A stretch of DNA of 44,451 bases. Source: an uncultured Bacteroidales bacterium. Its GTDB lineage: Bacteria; Bacteroidota; Bacteroidia; Bacteroidales; Paludibacteraceae. Shown here in pieces: positions 6,251-32,292 of the stretch. Where the stretch lies: positions 72,538 through 116,988 of the forward strand of contig CACZZL010000008.1 in assembly GCA_902785605.1 (NCBI GenBank), given 5' to 3'. The notes under the pieces are model-generated. The model was not told the DNA's origin. It made no database searches and worked only from the letters and a program-made list of their open reading frames with translations. Position numbers and translations under genes: made by a program. How positions within the stretch are numbered: the first letter of the stretch is position 1; each line of letters begins with the position of its first letter.

Positions 6251-6272
6251 AGATTGGAGATTGAAGATTGGA
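6251..6272 (+). repeat. Heptamer array (AGATTGG unit) at a gene junction
   Basis: AGATTGG AGATTGA AGATTGG A directly after the TGA stop of the PCMD-like gene. The likely TTG start of the next gene (6268) is part of the array. Confidence 0.8.
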
Positions 6273-7488
6273 ATTTTTTGAAAACATAGCGTGGTATGAG
6301 TGGACGCTGATCGGCGTGCTGTTGCTGCTATTCATTGCGCAGATTTATTGGTACGCGCGTTACCTGTGTGCGCCGGCGCGGAAATTAAGGAGAGATAAGA
6401 AATCCCCCGTAACCGGTAACCCGTCCCCTGTAACCGACGGCGTATCCGTCATCCTCTGTGCGCATAACGAGAGCGAGAACCTGTCGTACTATCTGCAGGC
6501 CTTGCTGACGCAGGATTATCCGACGTACGAGGTGATTGTCGTGGACGATGGTTCGGAAGACAGCACACGGGACGTGATCGAGCGATACATGGTGCGCGAC
6601 CCGCGTCTAAGGATGACTTTTGTTCCGTACGGCGCACGTGTTCGTTCGACCAAGAAGTTAGCGCTGACGCTCGCTGCCAAAGCGGCCCAATACGACTACC
6701 TGTTGCTCACCGACGCAGACTGCGTACCCGAGTCCAAGCATTGGATCAGCGAGATGATGGGGGGATTCGGTTACGGGTTACCGGTTACGGGTGACGGGAA
6801 GGAAGTGGTCCTTGGCTTCAGCCCGTACTTTGAGACGAAGGGACATATCAATCGTCTGGTGCGTTTTGATACGCTGTTCAACGGCCTGCATTACCTCGGC
6901 GCTGCGCTGTGCGGTCATCCGTATATGGGTGTCGGACGTAACCTGGCGTACCGCAAATCGCTCTTCTTCGAGTCGGGCGGTTTCACGCATATGATGAACA
7001 ATAGGGCAGGGGACGATGACCTGTTCGTCAACCATGTGGCGACCAAAGCCAATACAGCCGTGGTACTGAGCCGCGACAGTTATACCTGGTCGCTGTCCAA
7101 GACGACGATGAAAGATTGGTGGCAGCAGAAACGGCGTCATCTGTCCGTCTCACCGTCGTACAAAGGTATAACCCAGTTCCGCTTGACGCTGGAACCGCTG
7201 ACGCGCGGATTGTTCTACGCTGCTGTGATCGGAACGATCGTCTATGCGTGCCTGCGTTATCCGATTCAGTTCCTGCAACTGGGATTCGGTATGTGGGAGT
7301 TGCTGCTCTGTTGTGCGGTAGGCTTGTTCCTCGTGCGTTGGATCACCCAGACCGCCATCATCAACGTGTCCGCACGACGTATGGGGCTGCGGCGGTTTAA
7401 TATGTTCAGCATTCTGTGGTTCGACATCGCACTTCCGCTGGTCAACCTCTATATGCTGCTCGTCCCGAAGAAATATAATTGGAAGTAA
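6268..7488 (+). CDS. Membrane-bound GT2 family glycosyltransferase
   Basis: 406 residues starting at TTG 6268; no in-frame ATG occurs before the catalytic domain. An N-terminal membrane helix (WTLIGVLLLLFIAQIYWYA) is followed by the GT-A core: SVILCAHNESENL, VVDDGSEDS (~residue 90), LTDADC (~148, nucleotide-sugar/metal binding), GDDDLFVN (~248, catalytic base) and QQKRRH (~286, Q-x-x-R-R/W-type motif). Two C-terminal membrane helices (LLLCCAVGLFLVRWI and FDIALPLVNLYMLLV) suggest a processive or lipid-linked enzyme at the inner membrane. Two in-frame GTAACCC-family blocks encode SPVTGNPSPVTDG between the first helix and the catalytic core and GYGLPVTGDGKEV after the DAD motif, both likely surface loops. 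The sugar specificity is unknown. Confidence 0.88.
   Translation: MEFFENIAWYEWTLIGVLLLLFIAQIYWYARYLCAPARKLRRDKKSPVTGNPSPVTDGVSVILCAHNESENLSYYLQALLTQDYPTYEVIVVDDGSEDSTRDVIERYMVRDPRLRMTFVPYGARVRSTKKLALTLAAKAAQYDYLLLTDADCVPESKHWISEMMGGFGYGLPVTGDGKEVVLGFSPYFETKGHINRLVRFDTLFNGLHYLGAALCGHPYMGVGRNLAYRKSLFFESGGFTHMMNNRAGDDDLFVNHVATKANTAVVLSRDSYTWSLSKTTMKDWWQQKRRHLSVSPSYKGITQFRLTLEPLTRGLFYAAVIGTIVYACLRYPIQFLQLGFGMWELLLCCAVGLFLVRWITQTAIINVSARRMGLRRFNMFSILWFDIALPLVNLYMLLVPKKYNWK
6404..6435 (+). repeat. In-frame GTAACCC heptamer block in the GT2 gene (first)
   Basis: GTAACCG GTAACCC GTCCCCT GTAACCG encodes PVTGNPSPVT between the N-terminal helix and the catalytic domain. Confidence 0.85.
6769..6798 (+). 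repeat. In-frame GTAACCC heptamer block in the GT2 gene (second, reverse)
   Basis: GGTTACGGGTTACCGGTTAC followed by GGGTGACGGG, the reverse complement of the same unit. It encodes GYGLPVTGDG in the loop after the DAD motif. Confidence 0.85.
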
Positions 7489-7522
7489 AAGTTTTAAGTT
7501 GAAAGTTTAACGATTAAAGTTT
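7488..7522 (+). repeat. Heptamer array (AAAGTTT unit) at a gene junction
   Basis: AAAGTTT TAAGTTG AAAGTTT AACGATT AAAGTTT begins on the last base of the GT2 stop codon and reaches to within 7 bases of the ATG of the DUF3467 gene. Confidence 0.8.
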
Positions 7523-7529
7523 AGAAAAT

Positions 7530-7835
7530 ATGGCAGAACAGAAAGAATTGAAAATCAACATCGCTCCTGACAAAGCGCAGGGCGTGTTCGCTAACTTGGC
7601 ATTGATAGCACATACTCCGACGGAGTTCGTATTGGATTTTGCACAAATAATGCCCGGCATGCCGCAGGCGAATGTGGTATCGCGTGTCGTTGTCACCCCG
7701 GATCAGGCAAAGAAGATCCTGGCCGCACTGCAGAACAATATCGGTCAGTACGAGCAGAAGTTCGGTACCATCCAACCTGTTGGTCCTGCACACGGTAGCA
7801 CGCTGCCGCTGACCTTCGCAGGTGGCGAAGCGTAA
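7530..7835 (+). CDS. DUF3467 family protein
   Basis: 101 residues, the full family length. The diagnostic features are ANLALIAHTPTEFVLDFAQI in the first half and NVVSRVVVTPDQAKKILAAL followed by a QNNIGQYEQKFG helix. Family members are small cytosolic proteins, common in Bacteroidota and archaea, of unknown biochemical role. The gene lies in a same-strand run between a glycosyltransferase and a nucleoside phosphorylase, with heptamer arrays on both sides, so its neighbours give no functional clue. Confidence 0.88.
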   Translation: MAEQKELKINIAPDKAQGVFANLALIAHTPTEFVLDFAQIMPGMPQANVVSRVVVTPDQAKKILAALQNNIGQYEQKFGTIQPVGPAHGSTLPLTFAGGEA

Positions 7836-7845
7836 TGCTGCGCAT

Positions 7846-7880
7846 ATTGGAAATTGGAGATTGGAAATTGAAGATTTTAA
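7846..7880 (+). repeat. Heptamer array (ATTGGAA unit) at a gene junction
   Basis: ATTGGAA ATTGGAG ATTGGAA ATTGAAG ATTTTAA between the DUF3467 stop (7835) and the phosphorylase ATG (7894). Confidence 0.85.
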
Positions 7881-7893
7881 AATAGATATTACT

Positions 7894-8769
7894 ATGAAAA
7901 CATTCCCAGCTTCGCAGTTGATCATCAATGCAGATGGTTCTGCGTTTCATTTGCACCTCAAACCGGAGTTTCTGGCAGACAAGATCATTCTTGTTGGTGA
8001 TCAGGACCGTGTAAATATGGTGGCATCCTTCTTCGACGAAGGATCCATCGAGTGTAACGTTCAGAGTCGTGAATTCCATACCATTACCGGTAAGTTCCAC
8101 GGCAAACGTATCTCCTGTATCTCGACCGGTATCGGAACCGATAACTGCGACATCGTCATGAACGAGATCGACGCGCTCGCGAACATCGATTTTGCGACCC
8201 GCACCGAGAAAGAGAACAAGCGCTGTCTTGACATCGTGCGTATCGGTACATGCGGCGGCATGCAAGAGGACATCCCTCTGGGTACGTTCCTCGTGAGCCA
8301 GAAGTCGATCGGTTTCGACGGCGTGCTGGCGTTCTACGAGGACCGCGATAAGATCGCTGATCTCGGCTTCGAGAAAGCGTTCGTGGACTTTGTCGGTTAT
8401 CCGAAGAAAGCGGCTGTGCCGTACGTCGTAGCTGCTAACCCCGAACTGGTTGATCGTATCGCCAAGGACGACATGATGCGCGGCTGTACGATTGCTGCCA
8501 ACGGATTCTACGGCCCGCAAGGACGTGTGCTGCGCGTCGGCTTGGCTGTGCCGGATATCAACGAGAAGATCACGGCATTCCGCTACGAAGGACAGCGTAT
8601 CACCAACTACGAGATGGAAGGATCCTGTATCGCAGGTCTCGCACTCCATATGGGTCACCATGCAATGACCGTTTGCTGCGTGATCGCACAACGTAAGATC
8701 GAGGCGGCCAACACCGATTATAAACCGCGTATCAAAGAGTTGGTACGCACAGTATTAGAGCGTATCTAA
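7894..8769 (+). CDS. Nucleoside phosphorylase (uridine phosphorylase-like)
   Basis: 291 residues from ATG 7894; the open frame back to 7822 crosses a heptamer array. It belongs to the PNP/UDP phosphorylase superfamily, which cleaves nucleosides with phosphate to base and (deoxy)ribose-1-phosphate. Visible signatures are LVGDQDRVN near the N-terminus (phosphate side), CISTGIGTDNCDIVMNEI, VRIGTCGGMQEDIPLGTFLV (the G-T-[CS]-G-G core) and YEMEGSCIAGLAL (the M-E ribose-binding motif), then a C-terminal helix region with CCVIAQR. It fits the uridine phosphorylase side better than hexameric purine phosphorylase, but substrate specificity is inferred. Its stop overlaps the start of the following peptidase gene (TAATG), suggesting translational coupling. 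Confidence 0.85.
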   Translation: MKTFPASQLIINADGSAFHLHLKPEFLADKIILVGDQDRVNMVASFFDEGSIECNVQSREFHTITGKFHGKRISCISTGIGTDNCDIVMNEIDALANIDFATRTEKENKRCLDIVRIGTCGGMQEDIPLGTFLVSQKSIGFDGVLAFYEDRDKIADLGFEKAFVDFVGYPKKAAVPYVVAANPELVDRIAKDDMMRGCTIAANGFYGPQGRVLRVGLAVPDINEKITAFRYEGQRITNYEMEGSCIAGLALHMGHHAMTVCCVIAQRKIEAANTDYKPRIKELVRTVLERI

Positions 8770-10781
8770 TGAGAAAACAATTAGCAATCATCTTGGCAGC
8801 CGCGGGAATACTCTGCGGCTGTCAACAAAAAGAACAAGCATTCCAATACAACGTGGATAAGTTCTATGACCTGGAGATTCTCCGCTACGACGTACCGGAG
8901 TTTGAGAGCCTGACCCTGCAGCAGAAATCGCTGCTGTACTGTTTGAGCGAAGCGGCTCTGTGGGGACGCGATATCCTGTTCGACCAGAACGGCCGTTATA
9001 ACCTGCGTATTCGCCGTGCGTGCGAGGCACTGTACCTCAACTATCCGTATTCCAAAGATACGGAAGAGTTCGCAGCTTTTGAACGTTACCTCAAGCGTGT
9101 ATGGTTCTCCAACGGTATTCATCATCACTATTCGGAAGACAAATTCCTGCCGGAATTCTCGCAAGAGTGGTTTGTGGCTGCGTGTGAGCAGGCGGGAGTG
9201 GAGTACGATGCCGCTATCCTGCCGGTTATGTTCGACCCCGCTGTCATGCCCAAACGAATGACGGCTCAGGACGGTCTGGACCTGGTGGCTAATTCTGCCG
9301 GCAACTACTACGGCGAAGGAGTGACGCAGGCGGAAGCGGAAGCTTGGTACGCTGCGCACAAGGATAACTCGGACGAGCCGCTGTGGATTGGTCTCAATTC
9401 GCAACTCGTCAAGAACGAGAACGGCGAGATCGTGGAGCGCGTTTATAAAGTAGGCGGTCTGTACGGCGAGGCACTCGAGCAGGTCGTTTATTGGCTCAAA
9501 GAGGCACTGCAGTACGCAGAGAATGATCAGCAACGTGAGGTGATCGAGAAGATGATTGCGTTCAACGAGACGGGCGACCTGCGTCTGTTCAACGAATACT
9601 GCATTGCTTGGGTCAAAGATCTGGACAGCCGCGTGGACTACGTGAACGGTTTCACGGAGACCTACTCGGACCCGCTGGGTATCACCGGTACATGGGAGTC
9701 AATGGTTAACTTCAAGGACCTGGCCGCTACGAAGCGTACGCAGGCGATCTCCGACAACGCACAGTGGTTTGAGGACCACTCGACGACCGATCCCAAATAC
9801 AAGAAAGAGGAGGTAAAGGGTGTGACGGCCAAGGTCATCACCGCCGCAATCCTCGCCGGTGACTGCTATCCCGCTACGCCGATCGGTATCAACCTGCCGA
9901 ACGCCAACTGGATCCGTAAGGAGTACGGCTCCAAGTCCGTGACGATCGATAACCTGATGCACGCCTACAACGAGGCAGCCAAGGGTAACGGATTCAACGA
10001 AGAGTTCATGATCGACGACGAGATTCGTGCGATCTACGAGCAATACGGGGCGCTGTGCGGCGACCTGCATACCGATCTGCATGAGTGCGTCGGACATGGT
10101 TCCGGCAAACTGATGCCGGGCGTGAGCAAGGATGCGCTCAAAGAGCACGCTTCGACCATCGAAGAAGCACGTGCTGACCTGTTCGGTCTCTATTACCTCG
10201 CCGATCCCAAACTGGTCGAGTTAGGTCTGCTGCCGAATATGGAAGCGTACAAAGCCGGCTACTACCAGCAGATGATGAACGGCGCGATGACGCAACTCGT
10301 GCGTATTGAGCCGGGCAAGGACATCGAGGAAGCGCATATGCGTAACCGTCAGCTCATTGCCAATTGGGTACTGGAGCATGCGAACGGCGAGGTGGAGATC
10401 ATCAAAGTGAATGTACAAAGTGACAATGGACAATGTACAAAGCATTACCTGCGCATCAACGACTACGAAGGTGTGCGTCGTTTGTACGGTGAACTGCTGG
10501 CTGAGATCCAGCGTATCACGTCGGAAGGCGATTATGCGGCGGCCAAAGAGATGGTCGAGACCTATGCGGTCAAGGTGAACCCCGAACTGCACACAGAGAT
10601 CCTGGCGCGCTATGAGAAACTGAACCTTGCGCCCTACAAGGGTTTCGTGAACCCGGTTTATCACGTAGAGCGTAATGCCGAAGGTGAGATCACGAATGTG
10701 ACCCTCGATTTCACGGAAGGTTATATAGACCAACATCTGCGCTACAGCCGCGACTACAGTCCGCTGCCTGATGTCAATTGA
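8769..10781 (+). CDS. M49-family peptidase lipoprotein (dipeptidyl peptidase III-like)
   Basis: 670 residues. The N-terminus MRKQLAIILAAAGILCGCQQ is a lipoprotein signal with the lipobox ILCGC. The zinc motif HECVGH (H-E-x-x-G-H, ~residue 438) and the downstream EEARADLFGLYYL (~464, supplying the third zinc ligand Glu) identify family M49, which removes dipeptides from the N-terminus of oligopeptides. The length matches bacterial DPP III. As a lipoprotein it would act in the periplasm or at the outer membrane. An in-frame heptamer block (10412-10442) inserts NVQSDNGQCTKH between EIIK and YLRIND. ATG 8769 overlaps the previous stop. Confidence 0.9.
   Translation: MRKQLAIILAAAGILCGCQQKEQAFQYNVDKFYDLEILRYDVPEFESLTLQQKSLLYCLSEAALWGRDILFDQNGRYNLRIRRACEALYLNYPYSKDTEEFAAFERYLKRVWFSNGIHHHYSEDKFLPEFSQEWFVAACEQAGVEYDAAILPVMFDPAVMPKRMTAQDGLDLVANSAGNYYGEGVTQAEAEAWYAAHKDNSDEPLWIGLNSQLVKNENGEIVERVYKVGGLYGEALEQVVYWLKEALQYAENDQQREVIEKMIAFNETGDLRLFNEYCIAWVKDLDSRVDYVNGFTETYSDPLGITGTWESMVNFKDLAATKRTQAISDNAQWFEDHSTTDPKYKKEEVKGVTAKVITAAILAGDCYPATPIGINLPNANWIRKEYGSKSVTIDNLMHAYNEAAKGNGFNEEFMIDDEIRAIYEQYGALCGDLHTDLHECVGHGSGKLMPGVSKDALKEHASTIEEARADLFGLYYLADPKLVELGLLPNMEAYKAGYYQQMMNGAMTQLVRIEPGKDIEEAHMRNRQLIANWVLEHANGEVEIIKVNVQSDNGQCTKHYLRINDYEGVRRLYGELLAEIQRITSEGDYAAAKEMVETYAVKVNPELHTEILARYEKLNLAPYKGFVNPVYHVERNAEGEITNVTLDFTEGYIDQHLRYSRDYSPLPDVN
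10412..10442 (+). repeat. In-frame heptamer block (TGTACAA family) in the M49 gene
   Basis: TGTACAA AGTGACA ATGGACA ATGTACA AAG, almost the same sequence as the array between this gene and the next at 10782-10812. It is read through in frame. Confidence 0.85.
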
Positions 10782-10812
10782 TGTACAAAGTGACAATGTA
10801 CAATGTACAAAG
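10782..10812 (+). repeat. Heptamer array (TGTACAA unit) at a gene junction
   Basis: TGTACAA AGTGACA A TGTACAA TGTACAA AG immediately after the TGA of the M49 gene. The ATG start of the next ORF (10803) is inside the array. Confidence 0.85.
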
Positions 10813-12449
10813 GGATAAAATTGCCCATATCTAAAAGTATCGCAAATCGCATTTTGCTTTTGCAAGCTATCCATGGAGATCCGCTTATGCGGGTCTCTTC
10901 GGATATGCCCGACGATGTGATCGTGCTCCACGACGCGCTCGCGCGCTTGCGCGAATATAAAAAAGGAGAACCCCTCACGCTTTATCTCAAGAATTGTGGC
11001 ACAGCCTTGCGGTTCTTGGAGGTCCATTTGGACAAATGCTATCCCGATGAACCGATCACCCTTACCGGTGACGAGCGACTCATGGAGCGAAAAGGCAAAC
11101 CGACCTCGCAGACACATTCCGCTTTGCTCATGCATGGGGTGGAGGTGGATGACGATTCGCCTTATGTAGAGATGACCCGCCGTGTGATTGCCAACTACCC
11201 GAACGTGTCACTTGAACCTGATTGGTCGGCTGCGGCTTTCTGGTATGAGTACGTCGCAATTCATGGCGGTGAGTTGTTGCTGGAAGGCCTTACCGCTGAT
11301 AGCATTCAGGGCGACCGAGTGGTAGCCGACATCTATGCAAAGTACTTTGGCGTGGACACCACTTTCACCGCCGATGGGGCGGTGATAAGTACAAAGGGAC
11401 AAAGTACAATGTACAAAGGAAAATCGGTCTCGCTCGACTTCGAGCGGACCCCGGATCTCTATCCGCCAATTGCACTTACTTGTGAGCGGTTGGGTATCAC
11501 GCTCAAAGCGACCGGTACGGAGCGGCTGAAGTACAAAGAGTCCGATCGTCTCGAGGCGGTACGGTTGCACGAGGTGCGGAATGACCACCGAATGGCCATG
11601 AGTCTCCTATGTGCCGACTACCCGGTGTCGATCGCCGAGCAAGCCTGTATCGCGAAGAGTTACCCACAGTTTATCCGTCAGTTTTCCGCAATCCGTATTC
11701 AGCATATTACGCCTATCAAAGGCGTGAACGATGACAATTTGGGCAAGAAACATGCGCTCTCTAAACTGATCCATGCCGCTACTTCCGAGTATGTATGGAT
11801 GCACGATGACGATGTGGTGCTACCCAAGGCGACCGATATACCCTGTACAAAGGATGATTTGATTATTCTGCCGCTGCGCATGGAGAGTCTTTCTAAGAAT
11901 CCTTCGCTTTTGGAGATGCTGCAGATAGCGGAGTATGCGGCGATACAGGAACTGACTATGCGCACGGCCAAGGCGGGTAGGGCAGTCATGTGTTCAGGAG
12001 CGAACCTGATCGTTCGTCGTGAAGTGTGGCTGGCGTGTGAAGAGGATCTGCATCCTGAGATTCCGAGTGGGGATGATATGTTCCTGCTCGAATCCGCTAA
12101 GCGCCGCGGCTATAAGATCGGTGTCATCGACAAACCTGCATATACCGCCATTGTTCGTCCGCAGACGAGTTGGCGTGCTTTCTTTCATCAACGTATGCGC
12201 TGGGCCGGCAAGGCTCCGCATTACACCGATCGGGATATACGCCTTTGTGGCGCGTTGGTCGTGCTGGCAAATGTGCTGCAGGTCCTCTACCCCAAATTCT
12301 TTTGGGCCAAGTTCCCCATCGAGTATACGCTCATTCTCAAAAGAGAACCACACACCGAGTGGTATGTGGCTCTGCTTCTCGAACTGGTTTATCCGTTCTA
12401 TCTCCTTATTTCTCTTCTCGGCGGAATCTTCTCACGCCGCACATGGTAG
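10803..12449 (+). CDS. Fusion of a shortened AroA (EPSP synthase) with a GT2 glycosyltransferase C-terminal part
   Basis: One 548-residue frame with two unrelated halves. Residues 1-~295 are EPSP synthase (shikimate pathway): KLPISKSIANR, NCGTALRF (~64), GDERLMER, DWSAAAFW (~140), KESDRLEAV (~245), NDHRMAM (~259) and KSYPQF. Compared with ordinary ~410-residue AroA, the stretches after GDERLMER, around PYVEMT and between RLEAV and NDHRM are missing, about 100 residues in all, yet the frame is kept. Residues ~296-548 are the later part of a GT2 enzyme: GKKHALSKLI, HDDDVV (~333), SGDDMFLLE (~423), FFHQRMRW (~462) and C-terminal membrane helices; the N-terminal nucleotide-binding strand is absent. 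The ATG lies in a heptamer array, and another in-frame array sits at 11388-11419. Either half may be inactive. A deletion fusing aroA and a GT2 gene, or an assembly error, would explain it. Confidence 0.75.
   Translation: MYKGIKLPISKSIANRILLLQAIHGDPLMRVSSDMPDDVIVLHDALARLREYKKGEPLTLYLKNCGTALRFLEVHLDKCYPDEPITLTGDERLMERKGKPTSQTHSALLMHGVEVDDDSPYVEMTRRVIANYPNVSLEPDWSAAAFWYEYVAIHGGELLLEGLTADSIQGDRVVADIYAKYFGVDTTFTADGAVISTKGQSTMYKGKSVSLDFERTPDLYPPIALTCERLGITLKATGTERLKYKESDRLEAVRLHEVRNDHRMAMSLLCADYPVSIAEQACIAKSYPQFIRQFSAIRIQHITPIKGVNDDNLGKKHALSKLIHAATSEYVWMHDDDVVLPKATDIPCTKDDLIILPLRMESLSKNPSLLEMLQIAEYAAIQELTMRTAKAGRAVMCSGANLIVRREVWLACEEDLHPEIPSGDDMFLLESAKRRGYKIGVIDKPAYTAIVRPQTSWRAFFHQRMRWAGKAPHYTDRDIRLCGALVVLANVLQVLYPKFFWAKFPIEYTLILKREPHTEWYVALLLELVYPFYLLISLLGGIFSRRTW
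11388..11419 (+). repeat. In-frame heptamer block (TGTACAA family) in the AroA part
   Basis: AGTACAA AGGGACA AAGTACA ATGTACA AAGG, read in frame as STKGQSTMYKGK between the VIS and SVSLDFERTPD segments of AroA. Confidence 0.8.
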
Positions 12450-13083: not shown

Positions 13084-13099
13084 AACTTCTCCCTTTCGA

Positions 13100-19336: not shown

Positions 19337-19407
19337 ATTGGTGTCTGCTATATATTACTATTGTTCGGGCGCGAGTGCGCGTGCAGGCACTTGCGCGGAT
19401 TCGACTA

Positions 19408-19438
19408 CAAAGGTACAACAAATTTTAGACATACGCAA
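19408..19438 (-). promoter_or_regulatory. Promoter of the giant surface protein
   Basis: TTG 19438-19436, 20 bases, TACCTTTG 19415-19408, about 70 bases before the ATG at 19336. Confidence 0.65.
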
Positions 19439-19444
19439 ATAAAA

Positions 19445-19507
19445 GTACATTTTTTATCAAAAATGTACAAAAAAGAACCACACACTAATTAGCATGTGGT
19501 TCTTTTT
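19445..19507 (-). terminator. Tandem hairpins ending the rnf/vWA operon
   Basis: Two perfect stems: a 13-bp stem AAAAAGAACCACA/TGTGGTTCTTTTT (19470-19507) just downstream of the vWA stop, and a 10-bp stem GTACATTTTT/AAAAATGTAC (19445-19468). The first has a T-run on both strands and should terminate in either direction. Confidence 0.75.
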
Positions 19508-19519
19508 CAAAGGATGTGC

Positions 19520-20731: not shown

Positions 20732-20743
20732 ATGCGTTGTTTT

Positions 20744-21385: not shown

Positions 21386-21388
21386 ACC

Positions 21389-22719: not shown

Positions 22720-22731
22720 AACAGATCCTCC

Positions 22732-23733: not shown

Positions 23734-23763
23734 ATTCGTAAATTATTCAGATTACTTGTTTTA

Positions 23764-23818
23764 CTTAAAACTTTAAACTTTAGAACTTCTCTAAACTTTA
23801 AACTTTCAACTCTCAACT
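23764..23818 (-). repeat. Heptamer array (TAAAGTT unit) between rnfC and rnfD
   Basis: On the minus strand GAGAGTT GAAAGTT TAAAGTT ... TAAAGTT TAAAGTT, beginning at the rnfC stop codon. Confidence 0.8.
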
Positions 23819-25163: not shown

Positions 25164-25169
25164 AATTTG

Positions 25170-25199
25170 CTACTCTTTGTACGTTGTACCTTGTCATCA
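25170..25199 (-). repeat. Heptamer array (GTACAAC unit) between rnfB and rnfC
   Basis: Minus strand TGACAAG GTACAAC GTACAAA GAGTAGC, starting on the TGA stop codon of rnfB. Confidence 0.7.
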
Positions 25200-25622
25200 C
25201 TTCTTCTGCGCCATGCCGATGTGCATCGGGAAGGTTGCTCTCGGCGTCGGTAACGCTTTAATCTTAGCGGCAATAGCCGGGTCAAAGCCTTTCTTGTCAC
25301 CACCTTCGCCTGCTGCAGGGGCAGCTTCTTCGGCTGCGGCCGGTGTCAGTACTTTCTTGACCTCTTCCATCGTCGGTTCACCTCCTACCGGGCAAGCCAA
25401 ACCGTCAATGCCGCCTGCTTTCACACATGCTTCCGCAAAGTTACGACAACCGGCAAATCCACATCCGCCGCAGTTGGCTCCCGGCAATACCGCCGTTACC
25501 AAATCAATACGCGGATCTTCTTCTACTTTGAAAATCAGGCTGACAATGTACAGCAACCCTGCGGCTACCAAACCTGTCACTCCCAATACTCCCATAGAAA
25601 TTAGAATTACACTCCAATCCAT
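25197..25622 (-). CDS. rnfB: Short RnfB lacking the ferredoxin domains
   Basis: 141 residues against ~270-330 in usual Bacteroidota RnfB. The N-terminal helix (VILISMGVLGVTGLVAAGLL) and the 4Fe-4S/ASKHA-type cluster domain are present: LPGANCGGCGFAGCRNFAEA (~42-61) and CPVGGEPTMEEV (~76), with the four expected Cys. An Ala/Glu/Gly-rich linker follows and then an unfamiliar end, GFDPAIAAKIKALPTPRATF plus PMHIGMAQKK. The two ferredoxin domains that normally carry electrons onward from ferredoxin are absent, and the 33 bp before rnfC cannot encode them in any frame. It is either a genuine reduced RnfB or the result of an in-frame deletion. The surrounding subunits are intact. Confidence 0.85.
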   Translation of the reverse strand: MDWSVILISMGVLGVTGLVAAGLLYIVSLIFKVEEDPRIDLVTAVLPGANCGGCGFAGCRNFAEACVKAGGIDGLACPVGGEPTMEEVKKVLTPAAAEEAAPAAGEGGDKKGFDPAIAAKIKALPTPRATFPMHIGMAQKK

Positions 25623-25669
25623 GTTTAGAATTTGTTAAATTGTTTGTATATTTTGATTAATTATTGTTC

Positions 25670-26083: not shown

Positions 26084-26100
26084 AAACACAAAAAGCGGTG

Positions 26101-26131
26101 CAAAGATACAAATAAAAATTTATATATGCAA
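26101..26131 (-). promoter_or_regulatory. Promoter of the rseC-rnf operon
   Basis: TTG 26131-26129, 20 bases, TATCTTTG 26108-26101, ending 18 bases before the rseC-like start codon. Confidence 0.65.
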
Positions 26132-26187
26132 GCGCGCGCGGACTTTATTTATAAAAAAATGATTTTTTGCACAAAAAACGCCAATCT

Positions 26188-26217
26188 TTCAACTTTCAAC
26201 TTTCAACTTTCAACTTT
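26188..26217 (+). repeat. Heptamer array (TTTCAAC unit) upstream of ftsK
   Basis: Four perfect copies of TTTCAAC followed by TTTTTTT, ending just before the ftsK promoter box. Confidence 0.9.
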
Positions 26218-26223
26218 TTTTAG

Positions 26224-26231
26224 TACCTTTG
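26224..26231 (+). promoter_or_regulatory. Probable -7 box of ftsK
   Basis: TACCTTTG about 100 bases before the ftsK ATG. The -33 region falls within the TTTCAAC array and lacks a TTG at exactly 20 bases, so array length could influence promoter strength. Confidence 0.45.
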
Positions 26232-26261
26232 CATCGTATTTTGAGTTATTGTGCGCAAAAT

Positions 26262-26318
26262 CGTAAATCGTAACTAAATTGTCACTCGTCAATAAATCGT
26301 AAATCGTAAATCTGTAAA
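26262..26318 (+). repeat. Heptamer array (GTAAATC unit) in the ftsK leader
   Basis: Units GTAAATC, GTAACTA, then AAATC GTAAATC GTAAATC TGTAAATC GTCAATA, reaching to within about 15 bases of the ftsK ATG (26334). Confidence 0.8.
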
Positions 26319-26333
26319 TCGTCAATATACATC

Positions 26334-28973
26334 ATGCCAAGAACTTCATCTAAATCCGGAAATAGTGCTCCTGAGGCGAAAGCCGAACGGGAGATTCGTG
26401 TAGAGAAAACACCGTTCTGGGAGACGGTCAAGCGAATAGCGACCGCACGTGAGACGCGGGTCATCATCGGTATTCTGATGGTGACGTTTGCGCTGGTGAT
26501 GCTGATCGCGTACATCAGTTTCCTCTTTACCGGTGTGAATGACCAGTCTGTGCTCGCCATGGACCAGGCAGACCGCGTAGCCAATCGCGAGGCGATCAAG
26601 AACCTGCTCGGTTTGCCCGGCGCACTGTTGGCACGTTTCCTCGTGGACGGCTCGTTCGGTTTTGTGAGCGTGCTGCTGGCACTCATGCTCGGTATCTACG
26701 GCTTGCGTCTGATGCACGTAATCAAAGATATCCGCGCCATCAAGTTGTTCTGCGGCGGTACGTTCTGGATTCTGTGGGGTTCCATCACCCTGGGTTTTGC
26801 GCAACTGATGATCAACCACGGCGCTTATCGCTGGGGTGGGGCTTTCGGTTCATGGATAGCAAATTGGATGCATAGTTATATTCATGCAATCGGTACGTTC
26901 CTTGTGTTAGCTATCGTGCTGATTATCTTCCTGATCGTAACCGATCCGAAGTTCATCGACCGCTGCAAATCGTTCGGTCTGTGGGTAGCCGGTTTGTTCA
27001 AGAAGAAAGCGAAAGCAGAGGAGGTTGTTGTTCCGGTTGAACCGACTGAACCGGCTGCCGAAACGACTACAGAAGAGCCGGCTGAAGGCACCGAAGTGAC
27101 CATCGACCTTCCCGTAACCGCTAACCCGTCCCCCGTAACCGCTAACCCCTCTCCCGTAACCGCTTCGGACGACGATGTCACCTTCACCATTGAGCCGATA
27201 ACGGAAGAACCCGAACCCGAACAGGAGGCCGAGCCCGAAGAGGAAACGGAAGAGCCCGTGGAGGACGAGCCGCTGCCTGATGATGGCGGACCGACCGACG
27301 GTACATTGACCGACCTGCTGCAGAAAGAGGCGCAGGAAGAGGAGGATAAGTTGAAGATCGAGGATGTGAAAGAGGATGATCTCTATACCAAAGATCCGCA
27401 GAAACTGCTGGAGAAACTGGGCCCGTACGATCCGCGTAAGGACTTGGAATTCTTCAAGTTCCCGAGTTTGGACCTGCTCAAGGTCTATGACAACGAGTCT
27501 GCCCCGGTCATCGACGAGAACGAGCAACGGAACAACGGTGCACGTATCGTCACGACGCTGCGTAACTACGGTATCGAGATCGAGTCTATCAAAGCCACCG
27601 TCGGACCGACCGTGACCCTCTACGAGATCGTGCCGAAGGCCGGCATTCGCGTAGCGAAAATCCAAGCGCTTGAGAACGATATCATGATGTCCCTTTCCGC
27701 TACGGGCATTCGTATCATCGCCCCGATGCCGGGTAAAGGAACGATTGGTATTGAGGTGCCGAACGAGAAACCGCAAGTCGTCTCCATGCACTCCGTCATC
27801 GCTTCCAAGCGCTTCCAGGACGAGCAGAAGATGAAACTGCCGATTGCGTACGGACGTACCATCACCAACGAGGTGTTCATGTTCGACCTCGCCAAGACCC
27901 CGCACCTCCTCGTAGCGGGTGCTACCGGTACCGGTAAATCCGTCGCCATCAACGCCATCATCACGTCACTCCTGTACAAGAAGCACCCGGCTGAACTCAA
28001 ACTCGTCATGGTGGACCCGAAGATGGTCGAGTTCGCGCCTTACAAACCGCTCATCAAGCACTACCTGGCAGCCATGCCCGATACGGACCCCGAGCAGATC
28101 GTCATCACCGATTGCGACAAGGTGATCAACACGCTCAACTCGCTCGTCATCGAGATGGAGAACCGCTATAAGCTGCTCATGGATGCCGGCGTGCGTAACC
28201 TCGAGGACTACAACGAGAAGTTCGTCAACCGCCGGCTCAACCCCAACAAACTGGTCGGCGACAGCCTGCATCACCAGTTCCTGCCTTATATCGTCATCAT
28301 CATCGACGAGTACGGCGATTTCATCATGCAGGCCGGCAAGCAAGTCGAGACACCGATTGCCCGTATCACCCAGAAAGCACGTGCGGTCGGCATGCACATG
28401 ATCCTCGCAACCCAGCGTCCGTCCGTCAACATCGTTACCGGTGTGATCAAGGCCAATATCCCGACCCGTATCGCTCTGCGTACGCAGTCCGTCATCGACT
28501 CCCGTACCGTGCTCGATGCCAAGGGTGCCGAACAGCTCATCGGGCGCGGTGACTCGCTCTATGCCGGTAATGCATCCGTGACCCGTATCCAATGTGCTTT
28601 CGTTGATACACCCGAGGTGGACGCGATCGTCGGACATATCGCCAAGCAGCAGAAATATACCGAACCGTATCAACTTCCTGAGTATGTGGGTGAAGGCGGA
28701 GAAGGCGAAGCACTCGCTCCGGGTAGCGTCGATATGAAACGCCTCGATCCGATGTTCGCGGACGTAGCCCGTTACGTAGTAACGAAACAGGAGGGCTCAA
28801 CTTCTCGTCTGCAGCGTGCGTTCGAGATCGGTTATAACCGCGCCGGCAAACTGTCTGACCAACTCGAGGCAGCCGGAATCGTCGGACCGAACAAAGGACC
28901 GAAGGGACGTGATGTGCTCATCACCGACTTGGATCAACTGGAGAAATTATTGGCAGAATTAGACGTCAAATAA
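26334..28973 (+). CDS. ftsK: DNA translocase FtsK
   Basis: 879 residues, normal for FtsK/SpoIIIE. Four N-terminal membrane helices (residues ~38-205, the first VIIGILMVTFALVMLIAYIS) anchor it at the septum. A Pro/Glu-rich linker (~215-330) follows, then the alpha and beta motor domains with Walker A GATGTGKS (~528) and Walker B IVIIIDEYGDFIM, and finally the winged-helix gamma domain (TSRLQRAFEIGYNRAGKLSD) that reads polar KOPS-like sites. The protein pumps chromosome dimers and termini through the closing septum. The linker contains an in-frame GTAACCC heptamer block (27111-27162) encoding PVTANPSPVTANPSPVT. The stop codon TAA is the first part of the heptamer array that runs into lolA. Confidence 0.95.
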   Translation: MPRTSSKSGNSAPEAKAEREIRVEKTPFWETVKRIATARETRVIIGILMVTFALVMLIAYISFLFTGVNDQSVLAMDQADRVANREAIKNLLGLPGALLARFLVDGSFGFVSVLLALMLGIYGLRLMHVIKDIRAIKLFCGGTFWILWGSITLGFAQLMINHGAYRWGGAFGSWIANWMHSYIHAIGTFLVLAIVLIIFLIVTDPKFIDRCKSFGLWVAGLFKKKAKAEEVVVPVEPTEPAAETTTEEPAEGTEVTIDLPVTANPSPVTANPSPVTASDDDVTFTIEPITEEPEPEQEAEPEEETEEPVEDEPLPDDGGPTDGTLTDLLQKEAQEEEDKLKIEDVKEDDLYTKDPQKLLEKLGPYDPRKDLEFFKFPSLDLLKVYDNESAPVIDENEQRNNGARIVTTLRNYGIEIESIKATVGPTVTLYEIVPKAGIRVAKIQALENDIMMSLSATGIRIIAPMPGKGTIGIEVPNEKPQVVSMHSVIASKRFQDEQKMKLPIAYGRTITNEVFMFDLAKTPHLLVAGATGTGKSVAINAIITSLLYKKHPAELKLVMVDPKMVEFAPYKPLIKHYLAAMPDTDPEQIVITDCDKVINTLNSLVIEMENRYKLLMDAGVRNLEDYNEKFVNRRLNPNKLVGDSLHHQFLPYIVIIIDEYGDFIMQAGKQVETPIARITQKARAVGMHMILATQRPSVNIVTGVIKANIPTRIALRTQSVIDSRTVLDAKGAEQLIGRGDSLYAGNASVTRIQCAFVDTPEVDAIVGHIAKQQKYTEPYQLPEYVGEGGEGEALAPGSVDMKRLDPMFADVARYVVTKQEGSTSRLQRAFEIGYNRAGKLSDQLEAAGIVGPNKGPKGRDVLITDLDQLEKLLAELDVK
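27111..27162 (+). repeat. In-frame GTAACCC heptamer block in ftsK
   Basis: GTAACCG CTAACCC GTCCCCC GTAACCG CTAACCC CTCTCCC GTAACCG, seven units in the disordered linker, encoding two VTANPSP heptapeptides. Confidence 0.85.
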
Positions 28974-29011
28974 CCCGTAACCCGTAACCCATAACCCGTA
29001 ACCCGTAACCA
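28971..29011 (+). repeat. GTAACCC heptamer array spanning the ftsK-lolA junction
   Basis: From the ftsK stop: TAACCC GTAACCC GTAACCC ATAACCC GTAACCC GTAACCA, then the ATG of lolA. The array fills the whole gap exactly. Confidence 0.9.
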
Positions 29012-29581
29012 ATGACCAATTTGTTACTTATACTAACCATCCTCAGTTCGTTCCTTGCGAACCTGGAGACGAAGACCTTGCAATCGGACTTCACCGTCAC
29101 GGTGGCGGAGAACGTGGCATCCCCGATGAACTATCCGGGGTCGCTCACCATGCAGGGCACTCAATTCAAACTGTCCATGTTCAATATAGAAGCCGCCTAT
29201 GACGGCAAGACGCTCTATATGTACTCGCCGGACACGGACGAACTGACGCTGACCAATCCGACCGAGCAGGAACTGGTGGAAGCCAATCCGTTCCTCTACG
29301 CCAAAGCGCTGGTCGATGTGTGCAACATCACCGAACGAACCGTAACCGGTAACCCCTCACCCGTAACCGTTATCACCCTCACACCGAAAGATCAGTCGAT
29401 CGGTATTAACCGTTTTGTGCTCAAAGTGCGCACGGTCGACCTCATGCCGCTGCAACTGGAGATCAAAGAGGGCAATAAATCCTCTACGCTCAAACTAAAG
29501 AACCCGGCATTCGTCACCTCCTCGCCCAAATATGAAATTCAACCGGGCAAGGATACCTACCTCAACGACATGCGCTTCTAA
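29012..29581 (+). CDS. lolA: Outer-membrane lipoprotein carrier protein LolA
   Basis: 189 residues. A short signal peptide (MTNLLLILTILSSFLAN) precedes a LolA-type open beta-barrel: LQSDFTVTVAENVASPMNYP, GSLTMQGTQFKLSMFNIEAA (the F-x-[LM] strand typical of the family), YDGKTLYMYSPDTDELTLTN and a C-terminal LKLKNPAF...F ending. LolA shuttles lipoproteins through the periplasm from LolCDE to the outer membrane. An in-frame GTAACCC block at 29341-29368 inserts TGNPSPVT between NITERTV and VITLTPKD, probably a loop between strands. Its start and stop codons are both contiguous with heptamer arrays. Placement after ftsK is common in Bacteroidota. Confidence 0.9.
   Translation: MTNLLLILTILSSFLANLETKTLQSDFTVTVAENVASPMNYPGSLTMQGTQFKLSMFNIEAAYDGKTLYMYSPDTDELTLTNPTEQELVEANPFLYAKALVDVCNITERTVTGNPSPVTVITLTPKDQSIGINRFVLKVRTVDLMPLQLEIKEGNKSSTLKLKNPAFVTSSPKYEIQPGKDTYLNDMRF
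29341..29368 (+). repeat. In-frame GTAACCC heptamer block in lolA
   Basis: GTAACCG GTAACCC CTCACCC GTAACCG, encoding VTGNPSPVT. Confidence 0.85.
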
Positions 29582-29612
29582 TTTTTAATTCTTAATTTTT
29601 AATTTTTAATTA
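29579..29612 (+). repeat. TTTTTAA heptamer array spanning the lolA-trxB junction
   Basis: TAA (lolA stop) TTTTTAA TTCTTAA TTTTTAA TTTTTAA TTA, then the ATG of trxB at 29613. It fills the whole gap. Confidence 0.9.
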
Positions 29613-30602
29613 ATGAAAGTAAAATGTTTAATTATAGGTAGTGGCCCTGCTGGTTACACAGCCGCTATATATGCTTCGCGCGCTAATCTGGCGCCGGTAC
29701 TCATCGAAGGTCCGCAACTCGGCGGACAGTTGACCACCACCACCGAGGTGGAGAATTTCCCCGGTTATCCCGACGGAATCGATCCGTTCACCATGATGGA
29801 CGATATGCGCCGTCAAGCCGAACGCTTCGGTACCACCTTCGTCTCCGGTATCGTGACCAAAGTGGAGTTTGCCGCTCCCGTAACCGGTAACCCGTCACCC
29901 GTAACCCATAAAGTCTGGGTCGAAGACACAGACCTCTATGAAGCGGATGCGGTCATCATCGCTACCGGCGCGAGTGCCAAGTACCTGGGTATCGAGTCCG
30001 AGCGTACGTACCGCGGCCGCGGCGTGAGTGCGTGTGCGACCTGTGACGGATTCTTCTACCGCAAGAAAACGGTAGCGGTCGTAGGTGGCGGCGACACGGC
30101 GTGTGAGGAAGCGAACTACCTCGCAGGCCTGTGCGAGAAAGTATATATGATCGTGCGCAAACCGTACCTGCGCGCGTCCGAGATCATGCAACAGCGTGTA
30201 CTCAATAATCCCAAGATTGAGGTGCTCTTTGAGCACAACACCCTCCAACTGACCGGAGAAGGAAAGGTGCAAGGTGCCGATCTCATCTTCCGCAAAGGGG
30301 AGCCCGACGAGGCTATCAAACACATCGCTATCGACGGATTCTTCTTGGCGATCGGACACCATCCCAACACCGGCCTCTTCAGGGATTTCATTGCCCTTGA
30401 CCCCGAAGGCTACATCATCACCGAAGGACATAGCACGCAGTGCTATCAACCCGTAACCGGTAACCCCTCACCCGTAACCCCTCTTCCCGGTGTCTTTGCT
30501 GCCGGCGATTGTGCCGACCCGCATTACCGTCAGGCCGTCGTGGCTGCCGGCTCAGGTGCCAAAGCGGCAATCGAGGCCGACAAATATATCAAGTCTCTTT
30601 AG
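29613..30602 (+). CDS. trxB: Thioredoxin reductase
   Basis: 329 residues. The FAD motif is at the N-terminus (IIGSGPAGYTAAIYASRANL), followed by GGQLTTTTEVENFPGYPDGI, the redox pair CATC (residues 141-144), the NADPH motif VGGGDTACEEANYLA and the C-terminal GVFAAGDCADPHYRQAVVAA. The enzyme reduces thioredoxin with NADPH in the cytosol. Two in-frame GTAACCC blocks insert TGNPSPVT: after VEFAAPV (~residue 90) in the FAD domain and after TQCYQPV (~residue 280), just before the conserved PGVFAAGD. Conserved motifs are not interrupted, so the enzyme is probably functional. Confidence 0.95.
   Translation: MKVKCLIIGSGPAGYTAAIYASRANLAPVLIEGPQLGGQLTTTTEVENFPGYPDGIDPFTMMDDMRRQAERFGTTFVSGIVTKVEFAAPVTGNPSPVTHKVWVEDTDLYEADAVIIATGASAKYLGIESERTYRGRGVSACATCDGFFYRKKTVAVVGGGDTACEEANYLAGLCEKVYMIVRKPYLRASEIMQQRVLNNPKIEVLFEHNTLQLTGEGKVQGADLIFRKGEPDEAIKHIAIDGFFLAIGHHPNTGLFRDFIALDPEGYIITEGHSTQCYQPVTGNPSPVTPLPGVFAAGDCADPHYRQAVVAAGSGAKAAIEADKYIKSL
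29877..29909 (+). repeat. In-frame GTAACCC heptamer block in trxB (first)
   Basis: GTAACCG GTAACCC GTCACCC GTAACCC, encoding PVTGNPSPVTH. Confidence 0.87.
30449..30481 (+). repeat. In-frame GTAACCC heptamer block in trxB (second)
   Basis: GTAACCG GTAACCC CTCACCC GTAACCC, encoding PVTGNPSPVTP. Confidence 0.87.
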
Positions 30603-30607
30603 CCGCT

Positions 30608-30638
30608 CCCGTAACCGGTAACCCGTCACCCGTAACCC
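30608..30638 (+). repeat. GTAACCC heptamer array after trxB
   Basis: GTAACCG GTAACCC GTCACCC GTAACCC immediately downstream of the trxB stop, nearly identical to the two blocks within the gene. Confidence 0.87.
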
Positions 30639-30641
30639 ATA

Positions 30642-30670
30642 AAAAATGACCTCATTGCGAGGTCATTTTT
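30642..30670. terminator. Bidirectional terminator between trxB and the convergent gene
   Basis: Perfect 12-bp stem AAAAATGACCTC/GAGGTCATTTTT with a 5-base loop and T-runs in both directions. It separates convergent trxB and the Ig-rich gene. Confidence 0.85.
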
Positions 30671-30687
30671 CATTTTTCATTTTTCAT
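30663..30687 (-). repeat. TTTTCAT heptamer array forming the 3' end of the Ig-rich gene
   Basis: Three copies of TTTTTCA/TTTTCAT overlap the terminator arm. On the minus strand they encode the last residues MKNEK and the TGA stop of the gene. Confidence 0.75.
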
Positions 30688-32292
30688 CCCCTTCATATCG
30701 TACTTCGTCCTTTCAGTCACGATGTACGGCACACCGTCGATAATCACTTTCTGACTACTGACTGCTGACTGCTGAATACTCTCCACGTTCGTCGGCTCAC
30801 CGGCTGCGATCTGGAACACCGTCATGATAACCGTTGTCGGCAGGTAGTTGTTGTTACCCGGGTGATAAGCCACCACCGTCACTTCGCCTTCGTTCTCCGG
30901 GGTGATCATGCCGTTCTCGATGGACAGCAGACACTCCGTATACGCGTACGTGATCTCCAGGCCCGAACTGAGGACCGCAGAAGACGGGATCGATTGACCT
31001 ACCGTCAGTTCGGTCTCCTGGTTCTCCCACGTGATGAACTGAGCAGCTTTGTTGATATGGAGCGCTACGGGCAGTTCACGGGTGTTGTACAGACACAGGT
31101 CATTCGGCGTGAAAAGAACCTTCAGAGCATAATCGCCTGCATCCAGAATGCTGCTCGGGTCTTGATCTACCCAACTGAACGTACCTTCTACCTTGCCCAG
31201 TTGCTCCTCAATGAGTGCTTCGCTCAAGGCCTGACCATAGGTCAGATCGCCTACCGTCACACCAATCATCGGGTCCGCTTTGCGGATCGTCAGCGTCTTG
31301 CTGATCGGCTCGGCTGCGTTGAACTTATAGTTACCCGGTTGGGTCGCGGTCAACGTCACTTCACCGGCACACACAATCACCACTTCACCGTTCTCCACGT
31401 ACGCCACGCTCTCGTCCGAACTCTCGTACACCACTTCCAGCGCGGACGAACTGAACGCATTCAGTAGCACATGATCACCCGCTGTGCACTCGACTAAGTT
31501 CTGAATCCACGTCAACGTCTGGTCGTATTTCTTCGTTTCTCCGCTCACGGCAATACGCACTTCCTTGCCCTCACCGGCTAGCACGATCTCACCGCTGTGC
31601 TGACCGGCCTCGCTGTGCGAATAACGAATGGTCAGTTGCGTCGTCTGCTCAATCAGGTTCTTCTGACCGATAGTGCTCAACGATGCCGAGAAATGCGGGT
31701 CGGTCGAACTAACCTCTGCCACGATGTTCGTCCACGTGATGTTCACCGTCTTCGTCCCGTCGGCATCATCCACCATGCCACTACCGAACGGCCACTCGTC
31801 CGTACCCGCACTCAGTTTCTTCAGCTCCGTCACTTTGATCTTACGGAATACCACTGCGGTGTGGGCGCTCGCCGCGAACTTCAGGTAACGCGTCGTCGTT
31901 GCCAAAGCCACTTCTTCCTGGGTGTCGGTCGAGATGGTGTTACCCTCTTTGGATACCACCAACGACCAGTTGTTGTGGTCGGCTGACTGGTACACACTGA
32001 ACGTACCGTTACTACCGCCTTGCCAAGAGAAGCTTAAGGTCTCTGCGATACCGGTCTGCGATAACGCGATCACACACTCGTCATCGTAGGTACTGAATAC
32101 AGATATCTTACCAACGGACAAACCGCCTCCGACACCTAACACCGGATTGGAGAAACTGACGTTATCAGTCTTAGAGATAACGGTCTGGGCGTTCTCAAAA
32201 TCACTCTTGCTCATCTCTGTGTCCCATGCCAATTGAGCGGACACCGTCATAGCCAGCAGCATGCCGGCAACTATCATGTAGATCTTTTTCAT
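30670..32292 (-). CDS. Secreted Ig/MBG-domain protein with sorting-like C-terminus
   Basis: 540 residues from ATG 32292 (MKKIYMIVAGMLLAMTVSAQ, signal peptide). The first ~170 residues form a jelly-roll type module (QTVISKTDNVSFSNPVLGVG). Next come Ig-like domains, including ADPMIGVTVGDLTYGQALSE, which resembles the MBG repeat, and ITWENQETELTVGQSIPSSA. The tail QKVIIDGVPYIVTERTKYDM matches the K-V-I-x-x-G-x-x-Y-I-V-x(5)-Y-D-x-x-G pattern shared with the proteins at 2-1384 and 13100-19336; it ends GMKNEK because a TTTTCAT array supplies the stop. A second heptamer array (CTGACTG) encodes IQQSAVSSQ just before the tail. Probably exported; function unknown. Confidence 0.8.
   Translation of the reverse strand: MKKIYMIVAGMLLAMTVSAQLAWDTEMSKSDFENAQTVISKTDNVSFSNPVLGVGGGLSVGKISVFSTYDDECVIALSQTGIAETLSFSWQGGSNGTFSVYQSADHNNWSLVVSKEGNTISTDTQEEVALATTTRYLKFAASAHTAVVFRKIKVTELKKLSAGTDEWPFGSGMVDDADGTKTVNITWTNIVAEVSSTDPHFSASLSTIGQKNLIEQTTQLTIRYSHSEAGQHSGEIVLAGEGKEVRIAVSGETKKYDQTLTWIQNLVECTAGDHVLLNAFSSSALEVVYESSDESVAYVENGEVVIVCAGEVTLTATQPGNYKFNAAEPISKTLTIRKADPMIGVTVGDLTYGQALSEALIEEQLGKVEGTFSWVDQDPSSILDAGDYALKVLFTPNDLCLYNTRELPVALHINKAAQFITWENQETELTVGQSIPSSAVLSSGLEITYAYTECLLSIENGMITPENEGEVTVVAYHPGNNNYLPTTVIMTVFQIAAGEPTNVESIQQSAVSSQKVIIDGVPYIVTERTKYDMKGMKNEK
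30751..30780 (-). repeat. In-frame CTGACTG heptamer block
   Basis: Plus-strand CTGACTA CTGACTG CTGACTG CTGAATA, read on the minus strand as IQQSAVSSQ before the C-terminal tail. Confidence 0.8.

Follow-up and report, generated by a model that had tools for sequence, protein, structure and literature searches.

Tandem arrays of degenerate 7-bp units recur at and around the genes of a 44,451-nt stretch of contig C8 (hereafter the window) from an uncultured bacterium of the Paludibacteraceae, order Bacteroidales. These arrays are several dispersed families with internal order and a mostly fixed end register, and many of them lie inside protein-coding genes. On balance, and with limited confidence, we favour the reading that they are very small mobile repeats that spread by copying to new sites, where selection acting on reading frames decides which copies persist. 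The genome to which the window belongs (G000) comprises 2.08 Mb and is 83.5% complete. Judged by the trxB protein, its closest named relatives are uncultured Paludibacteraceae and Bacteroidales metagenome assemblies, many of them titled ruminant-gut.

Excess of period seven and families of arrays

Arrays in the window were detected using Tandem Repeats Finder (minimum score 30) and a lag-identity scan (periods 2–13). Tandem Repeats Finder returned 47 rows, 19 of which had period 7. The scan yielded 11 segments at period 7, one at period 8, two at period 9 and none at the remaining periods. A first-pass annotation had placed heptamer arrays at 12 coordinates, ten of which were among the Tandem Repeats Finder rows; the arrays near 7488 (AAAGTTT) and 25170 (GTACAAC) were seen by eye and were absent from the rows because they are too degenerate. 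A 0.82-Mb sample of the genome, window included, contained 143 segments at period 7, 8–11 at each of periods 6, 8, 9, 11 and 12, and none or one at each of the others from 2 to 13. The arrays amounted to 4618 bases, or ∼0.6% of the sample. Codon-wise and nucleotide-wise local shuffles of the sample contained no segment at period 7. These data confirmed that the arrays exist and that period 7 is in strong excess, the latter being a check that the annotation had proposed. Multiples of seven were also common in the sample (83 segments at period 14, 50 at 21 and 15 at 28), as expected from slippage by several units.

The annotation had further held the period to be always seven. This was borne out as dominance in G000 but not as a rule, some relatives having many 8- and 11-bp arrays. 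In G006, the relative used for in-depth comparison (84% complete; 0.81 Mb scanned), period 7 accounted for 110 segments, period 11 for 28 and period 8 for 19. The 8- and 11-bp arrays, exemplified by CCCAAGGATCA and CGTGATCA, occurred in other members of the genus too. Among 20-kb stretches from 20 same-genus genomes, 18 period-7 segments were found in nine stretches, together with 14 segments at period 11 and seven at period 8. Period 7 is therefore dominant in G000 and G006, and is neither exclusive nor universal in the genus. Fifty loci around trxB from other Bacteroidales (144 kb) held 12 period-7 and six period-8 arrays, with zero to two at other periods from 4 to 13, and 20 genomes from the order's remaining families, sampled with a single stretch each, held six period-7 segments, confined to two of the genomes. 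Heptamer arrays therefore extend beyond the genus, unevenly. The zeros returned by a phylum-wide probe of three TGTACAA units are uninformative, as the probe had no match in the array-bearing G000 either.

According to the first-pass annotation, each locus had its own, unrelated unit. This was ruled out by the class counts and by higher-order structure shared between copies. When units were grouped by rotation and strand, the 143 arrays fell into 51 classes, and AACCCGT (22 arrays), AAAAATT (18) and AAAGTTG (12) together accounted for 52 arrays. Individual elements were ∼28–60 bp long, with ∼4–8 degenerate heptamers apiece, and their units were AT-rich. Community detection on short self-matches of the genome sample yielded 11 families with at least four peaks. 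Four of these were promoter regions containing a TACCTTTGCA box, with no copies in genes; the seven others were all heptameric, with best lags of 7, 14 or 15.

Copies within a family shared more than the unit. An imperfect 30-mer was common to 29 pairs of array loci, 26 of them informative, the other three being neighbours with overlapping flanks. The 30-mers of TAATTTTTAATTCTTAATTTTTAATTTTTAATT were present at five loci, and two longer types, based on TAAATCG and on ACTTTCAA, repeated identical phase breaks at several loci. The register in which arrays begin and end was also mostly fixed: of 20 tests, which covered both ends of the arrays for 10 units or genomes, 15 gave p < 0.05, with start-register values of 2.7e-5 for CCCGTAA and 1.5e-6 for CTTTCAA. 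A reversed-pattern control was unusable for CTTTCAA because its reverse is its own rotation. The start registers of the CTTTCAA and ATCATAA arrays were the same in G000 and G006, two genomes whose unit palettes are otherwise species-specific.

The family with the most sharply defined copies, F5 (TGTACAAAGTGACNATGTACAATGTACAAAGG, 33 bp), had 33 sites with at most three mismatches; the reversed-pattern control had none. Thirty of the copies were examined. The preceding base was A at all 30 sites, and 25 copies lay inside called genes and five in intergenic DNA. Twenty-two of the in-gene copies were on the sense strand in a single frame, encoding approximately [ND]VQSDNVQCTK; another was sense in a different frame, and the remaining two were antisense, the gene around one of them having a weak score. 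Five of the six F5 frames are open, so stop codons alone do not account for the bias in strand and frame. The antisense frames read hydrophobic and, judging from these translations, it may be selection against hydrophobic peptides, and not the mechanism of insertion, that keeps the frame constant. Several copies precede a KVIRDGQLYI-like segment, presumably reminiscent of a type IX secretion tail; others are in unrelated contexts. In the genus sample (41 genomes, one per species), F5 was present in 21 genomes at 0 to 33 copies per genome, including 11 copies in G034 (97% complete). Two copies with identical variants lay 3654 bp apart in both G012:C26 and G035:C21, which suggests transfer of the region, or contamination.

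Reading frames and turnover

Gene calls came from an in-house hexamer scorer and not from published software; their start positions are approximate, and in-gene assignments may in some cases be wrong. By these calls, 65 of the 143 arrays were in genes, 22 at gene edges and 56 in intergenic DNA, which makes up 12.7% of the sample. The first-pass annotation had located the arrays at gene junctions. That holds for the intergenic and edge copies and fails for the 65 others; these, together with recurrent in-frame peptides, rule out an exclusively intergenic location. Identical array-encoded peptides, such as LKIKNEEL, GYGLPVTG and MTNDQSP, were found in different genes. The TrxB of G000 contains two heptamer inserts that are missing from most of 29 relatives, and two solved thioredoxin reductases in the alignment have gaps near both insert sites.

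Comparison of in-gene arrays with G006 was possible for 34 alignable cases (for a further 47 the G006 sample contained no ortholog, and three fell outside the alignment). Relative to G006, 16 were net insertions of at least 12 nt, six were insertions of 3–9 nt, three were neutral and nine were shorter. By eye, six of the 34 loops were occupied in G006 by another heptamer array and two by a palindromic element. In G006 and G018, some of the protein loops that hold heptamer elements in G000 had a palindromic element in their place. This element (TCCCTCCCTTCAGGGAGGGA..GAGGGTAGG and relatives) is in frame in such loops; it was noted in G006 near trxB (L010, L059) and at L011 and L154. For annotators, recurrent peptides such as VQSDNVQCTK and VTGYGLPVTG in Bacteroidales proteins may represent insertions of repeat DNA, not domains.

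Arrays at gene ends and within genes differed in their stop codons. Of the 143 arrays, 60 were assigned to gene 3′ ends, 55 to genes and 28 to neither group. The sense unit included a stop codon in 52 of the 3′-end arrays versus 21 of those within genes (Fisher p = 7.5e-8); for random heptamers of matching base composition the proportion is 48%. In 41 of the 60 3′-end arrays, the gene's own stop codon was wholly or partly inside the array. As seven is not a multiple of three, a stop codon in the unit is encountered in all three frames. Such a bias is what selection on the placement and form of arrays would be expected to leave.

Turnover was assessed at 140 junctions syntenic between G000 and G006. 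Arrays were present only in G000 at 24, only in G006 at 14, in both at seven and in neither at 95. The seven joint sites compare with ∼4.7 expected under independence, and two of them shared the unit. Several array-bearing junctions of G000 had no gap whatsoever in G006. At the junction 23734–23816, five of the nine relatives compared reached an array score of 10; their units differed, and the period was 7 in four of them and 8 in the fifth. Orthologous junctions, which the first-pass annotation had proposed comparing, did not carry identical arrays, either across the nine relatives at this junction or over the 140 junctions shared with G006; like the period-7 excess, this outcome favours the annotation. 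Its expectation of rapid turnover was upheld: array replacement is almost complete in the one species pair compared in depth.

Proposed spread of the arrays and related repeat systems

The shared higher-order structure, the end register and the recurrent in-frame peptides together suggest that arrays have been copied to new sites, beyond growth in place. The first-pass annotation had attributed the arrays to a single generating mechanism in preference to a single mobile sequence. The shared period agrees with the former, but the choice was a false one: there are several dispersed families, each with copied structure. In the mechanism that we propose, an existing array would be copied to a new site, probably via replication slippage and template switching, with the repeated units acting as annealing sites such that the heptamer structure itself might drive the spread. 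The copy would then be altered by loss, gain and substitution of units. Selection would retain copies that supply stop codons at gene 3′ ends and copies that are in frame and stop-free in tolerant protein loops; both patterns were observed, and selection is their probable cause. Loops of 7 nt may escape mismatch repair. A case of copying was found at trxB, where 42 bp, flanks included, are identical to a place 731 bp downstream. The last bases of the 42 bp encode H-K, which is also found at that place in G006 and G029, suggesting that the trxB gene was the donor.

Several observations weigh against copying of mobile repeats. The trxB 42-mer is the sole clear case of copying with flanks, and long shared flanks are rare: among 544 same-class pairs, both sides considered, there were two runs of at least 8 bp versus 1.2 in the control. 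Shorter runs, of at least 5 bp, numbered 32 versus 8.2. Clustering within families is weak, with seven same-family pairs at 60–500 bp versus 4.5 permuted (82 of 500 permutations were as high); at 500–1000 bp there were 10 pairs versus 5.2 (17 of 500 as high). Five of the 20 end-register tests gave p ≥ 0.05, and the tests overlap since similar units share arrays. The starts of TTTTTCA and CTTTCAT gave p of 0.05–0.1, and the end of ATCATAA in G000 and both the start and end of CCATACA in G006 gave p > 0.1. Period 7 is also patchy in the genus, given the nine array-bearing stretches of 20 and a total close to that at period 11 (18 versus 14). Finally, a dedicated enzyme is also compatible with the sharp ends of F5. 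Two narrower models were tried and rejected: patch copying with flanks as the rule was ruled out by the flank test on the 544 pairs, and in the case of short-range spread, neighbours of the same family were only weakly in excess up to 1 kb.

A transposase, integrase or reverse transcriptase that mobilizes the heptamer elements in trans, as miniature elements, is an unlikely but serious alternative. REP-associated tyrosine transposases (RAYTs) have been proposed to mobilize REPINs, elements built of repetitive extragenic palindromic (REP) sequences, in trans. Such an enzyme would fit the sharply bounded F5 copies with their invariant preceding base, their frame constancy and their range of 0 to 33 copies between species. 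However, the terminal repeats of F5 are direct and not inverted, and there was no match to the Y1 transposase family of the RAYTs (PF01797) in G000 (where, at 83.5% completeness, the gene may be missing), G006 (84%) or G034 (97%). RVT_1 (PF00078) likewise had no match in these three genomes; other enzyme families were not searched. Among the 41 genus genomes, PF01797 had some match in 16 and PF00078 in 10. A Y1 transposase or reverse transcriptase as the driver was accordingly left unsupported in the three genomes. With respect to carriage by phages or plasmids, the F5 pattern had no match in viral contigs, an F1 pattern had three, and one 71-base piece searched against plasmids had none.

Local slippage alone strikes us as distinctly improbable. 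By this account, arrays grew in place from chance 7-bp duplications, the polymerase slipping preferentially at seven (an idea that MacGregor credits to Mrazek et al. 2007), and the likeness within families reflects mutation bias. The frequent periods 14, 21 and 28 and the AT-rich units are consistent with it, as is the finding, quoted from that study in PMC4679880, that heptanucleotides outnumbered every other class in most of its genomes. Slippage does not readily explain identical imperfect 30-mers at several loci, a family end register that partly agrees between two species, 33 copies of one 33-bp structure that are mostly on one strand and in one frame of genes, or repeated peptides in different genes.

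We consider it very improbable that the arrays are functional sites that act in translation or termination as binding or regulatory sequences, a role put forward for the TAACTGA repeats of Beggiatoaceae. Their placement between stop and start codons, the prevalence of stop-containing sense units at 3′ ends and an array kept in relatives in the promoter region upstream of ftsK would suit such a role, whereas the near-independent occupancy of junctions in two species, with differing units, and the many arrays inside proteins would not. An assembly artefact or chance is scarcely credible: many of the genomes are metagenome assemblies, in which short tandem repeats are hard to assemble, but the arrays are short (∼30–60 bp), genes stay in frame, the species-specific units recur across assemblies of several projects (RUG, UBA, metaWRAP, RGIG), and shuffles contain none.

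The mobile-repeat reading has a bolder form, which we put forward tentatively and regard with considerable doubt: the heptamer array itself would be the replicator. It would be ultra-short selfish DNA whose tandem structure is the sole determinant of transposition. Lacking a dedicated enzyme, it would be copied by host replication and repair, and it would have been domesticated time and again as three-frame-stop gene ends and in-frame protein loops. A measurable part of intergenic DNA and of loop diversity would then consist of arrays. The 41-genome genus includes several species with many elements, many families at once and in-frame protein insertions as footprints. Its comparison can address what sets the period, whether arrays are mobile, whether an enzyme is needed and how new protein loops originate.

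The first-pass annotation had likened the arrays to the heptameric short tandemly repeated repetitive (STRR) sequences of cyanobacteria, and the analogy is apt: both consist of tandem degenerate 7-bp units in strong excess over other periods, with several units per genome. Mazel and colleagues reportedly described STRRs in 1990, in heterocystous cyanobacteria, as tandem 7-bp units, several per genome and mostly intergenic. The Bacteroidales arrays differ in forming many dispersed families with internal order, in being often in frame inside proteins (only 56 of 143 are intergenic), in the replacement of units between species at the same junction, and in host phylum. Elhai and colleagues, in 2008, are said to have described cyanobacterial small dispersed repeats of a few tens of bp, seemingly mobile and with no visible enzyme. 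These resemble our elements in that a fixed short sequence is dispersed at unrelated sites (33 copies of F5, none in the control; seven heptameric families), and differ from them in that the Bacteroidales elements are themselves built of heptamers and enter coding frames. Rickettsia palindromic elements are short repeats found in frame in unrelated protein genes; they share in-frame insertion with the G000 families but are longer and palindromic, the latter being direct heptamer repeats. REP and REPIN sequences with RAYTs differ in that F5 ends in direct repeats, not palindromes, and systems driven by reverse transcriptases (diversity-generating retroelements, retrons, group II introns) differ in the lack of a detected PF00078 match, in the same three genomes as for PF01797.

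Heptameric repeats have been noted before in cyanobacteria, Xanthomonas and Beggiatoaceae. MacGregor 2015 (PMC4679880) describes TAACTGA direct repeats of Beggiatoaceae that lie mostly between genes and whose three-frame stops let forward copies end genes. It lists five Bacteroidetes, including Paludibacter propionicigenes, with further heptamer repeats alongside in three Bacteroidetes, and relays from Mrazek et al. 2007 the rank of heptanucleotides as the top class in most genomes together with a polymerase-footprint proposal. Those repeats resemble the G000 arrays in their 7-bp direct repetition and in supplying stops at gene ends. By contrast, Beggiatoaceae have one dominant unit with related heptamers rarely repeated, whereas G000 has dozens of units in families and common in-gene copies; TAACTGA (class AACTGAT) is not among its 51 classes, the top one being AACCCGT. 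Rehm et al. 2015 (PMC4692102) report GGGNATC repeats of Xanthomonas and Nostoc, which are G-rich and quadruplex-forming and occupy mostly the same junctions in two close relatives with varying length and sequence. They also mention three heptanucleotides of Calothrix and state that no detailed literature on heptameric repeats existed at that time. GGGNATC repeats are likewise heptameric but of one G-rich type, whereas the G000 families are mostly A+T-rich. The extracts searched yielded no account of heptamer elements forming several families in Bacteroidales, nor of in-frame copies of such elements. The G000 elements are best described as extending the known kind of heptameric and small dispersed repeats, with many families at once, in-frame copies in proteins and replacement between species.

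Arrays and other features of the window

Coordinates below refer to the window and to its plus strand unless stated. The in-gene copies at 6031, ∼6410, 6769, 10412, 11388, 27111, 29340, 29871, 30448 and 30751 are additional to the arrays of the first-pass annotation. Tandem Repeats Finder detected an F1-type (GTTACGG) array at 6031–6066 (minus strand) inside gene 5117–6250 and an AGATTGA/AGATTGG array at 6230–6270 that runs from the 3′ end of this gene into the start of gene 6268–7488. The latter gene, a glycosyltransferase, contains an F1-type stretch at 6408–6440, seen by eye, and an F1-type array at 6769–6798 (minus strand; Tandem Repeats Finder) that is in frame and encodes GYGLPVTGDG. The junction between it and gene 7530–7835 (DUF3467) is filled by a degenerate AAAGTTT/AAGTTGA array at 7486–7525, seen by eye and below the Tandem Repeats Finder threshold; an ATTGGAA array detected by the program follows at 7846–7876, behind gene 7530–7835.

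Three F5 copies lie between 10412 and 11419. The first, at 10412–10443, is in frame in an M49-type peptidase gene (8769–10781); five of six aligned relatives have a shorter ERDG at this loop, and G021 has a different insert. The second, at 10782–10813, immediately follows the stop codon of that gene, at a site that is empty in G006, G003, G018 and G004 and holds a variant in G015 and G021. The third, at 11388–11419, is in frame in gene 10803–12449, in a loop that by eye contains other repeats (heptamer, 11-mer or palindromic insertions) in G006, G003, G021, G018 and G015. A single frame here matches EPSP synthase followed by a family-2 glycosyltransferase; some relatives have the two halves in separate frames.

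An F3 element, comprising heptamer blocks and a phase break, occupies 23763–23818 at the junction of RnfD-like and RnfC-like genes. A weak GTACNNN array (score 8 only) is at 25164–25196, between genes 23817–25163 and 25197–25622. Upstream of ftsK, a CTTTCAA array at 26186–26217 lies between a conserved upstream block and a TACCTTTG box and is one of the few arrays common to relatives (G006, G030). An F4 element of TAAATCG units follows at 26258–26326, upstream of the ftsK start codon. The region 26090–26240 contains a promoter-type block of 40–60 bp (ATATGCAA..., a T-run and the TACCTTTGCA box) that recurs in ∼160 peaks of the genome sample; blocks with ATATGCAA were never within a called gene, and their upstream part has imperfect palindromes.

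Within ftsK are 21-bp (3 × 7) repeats of CCCGTAACCGCTAACCC at 27111–27164. A GTAACCC array at 28969–29020 provides the ftsK stop codon and fills the junction to a lolA-like gene, where G006 has no gap. The lolA-like gene contains an F1-type array at 29340–29382 (Tandem Repeats Finder) and owes its stop codon to the F2 element TAATTTTTAATTCTTAATTTTTAATTTTTAATT at 29579–29611, exact 30-mers of which occur at four further loci; G006 and several other relatives have no gap at this site. In trxB, an in-frame F1 element at 29871–29912 forms, with its flanks, one copy of the 42-bp identity described above, the second copy being at 30602–30643, at and beyond the trxB stop codon. An F1-type array at 30448–30483 is also in frame in trxB, and a G006 array with changed units aligns there. 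A TTTTTCA array at 30663–30687 adjoins a terminator-like hairpin at the 3′ end of gene 30670–32310 (minus strand), and a CTGACTGCTGA array at 30751–30780 (minus strand) is in frame near the end of the same gene, encoding IQQSAVSSQ.

Other features of the window concern different repeats and open frames. A 2078-residue open frame spans 13100–19336 on the minus strand. Between 19496 and 22719, long open frames occur on both strands; among the four frames tested, Pfam matches (VWA, FMN-binding) were on the minus strand only. A 36-bp tandem repeat is present at 22009–22095. Finally, tandem repeats of 8 and 9 bp (TGTCAGTTC, AAACTGACA, AAAGTCTC) are clustered at 39949–40262; they are partly mutually inverted and have periods other than seven.

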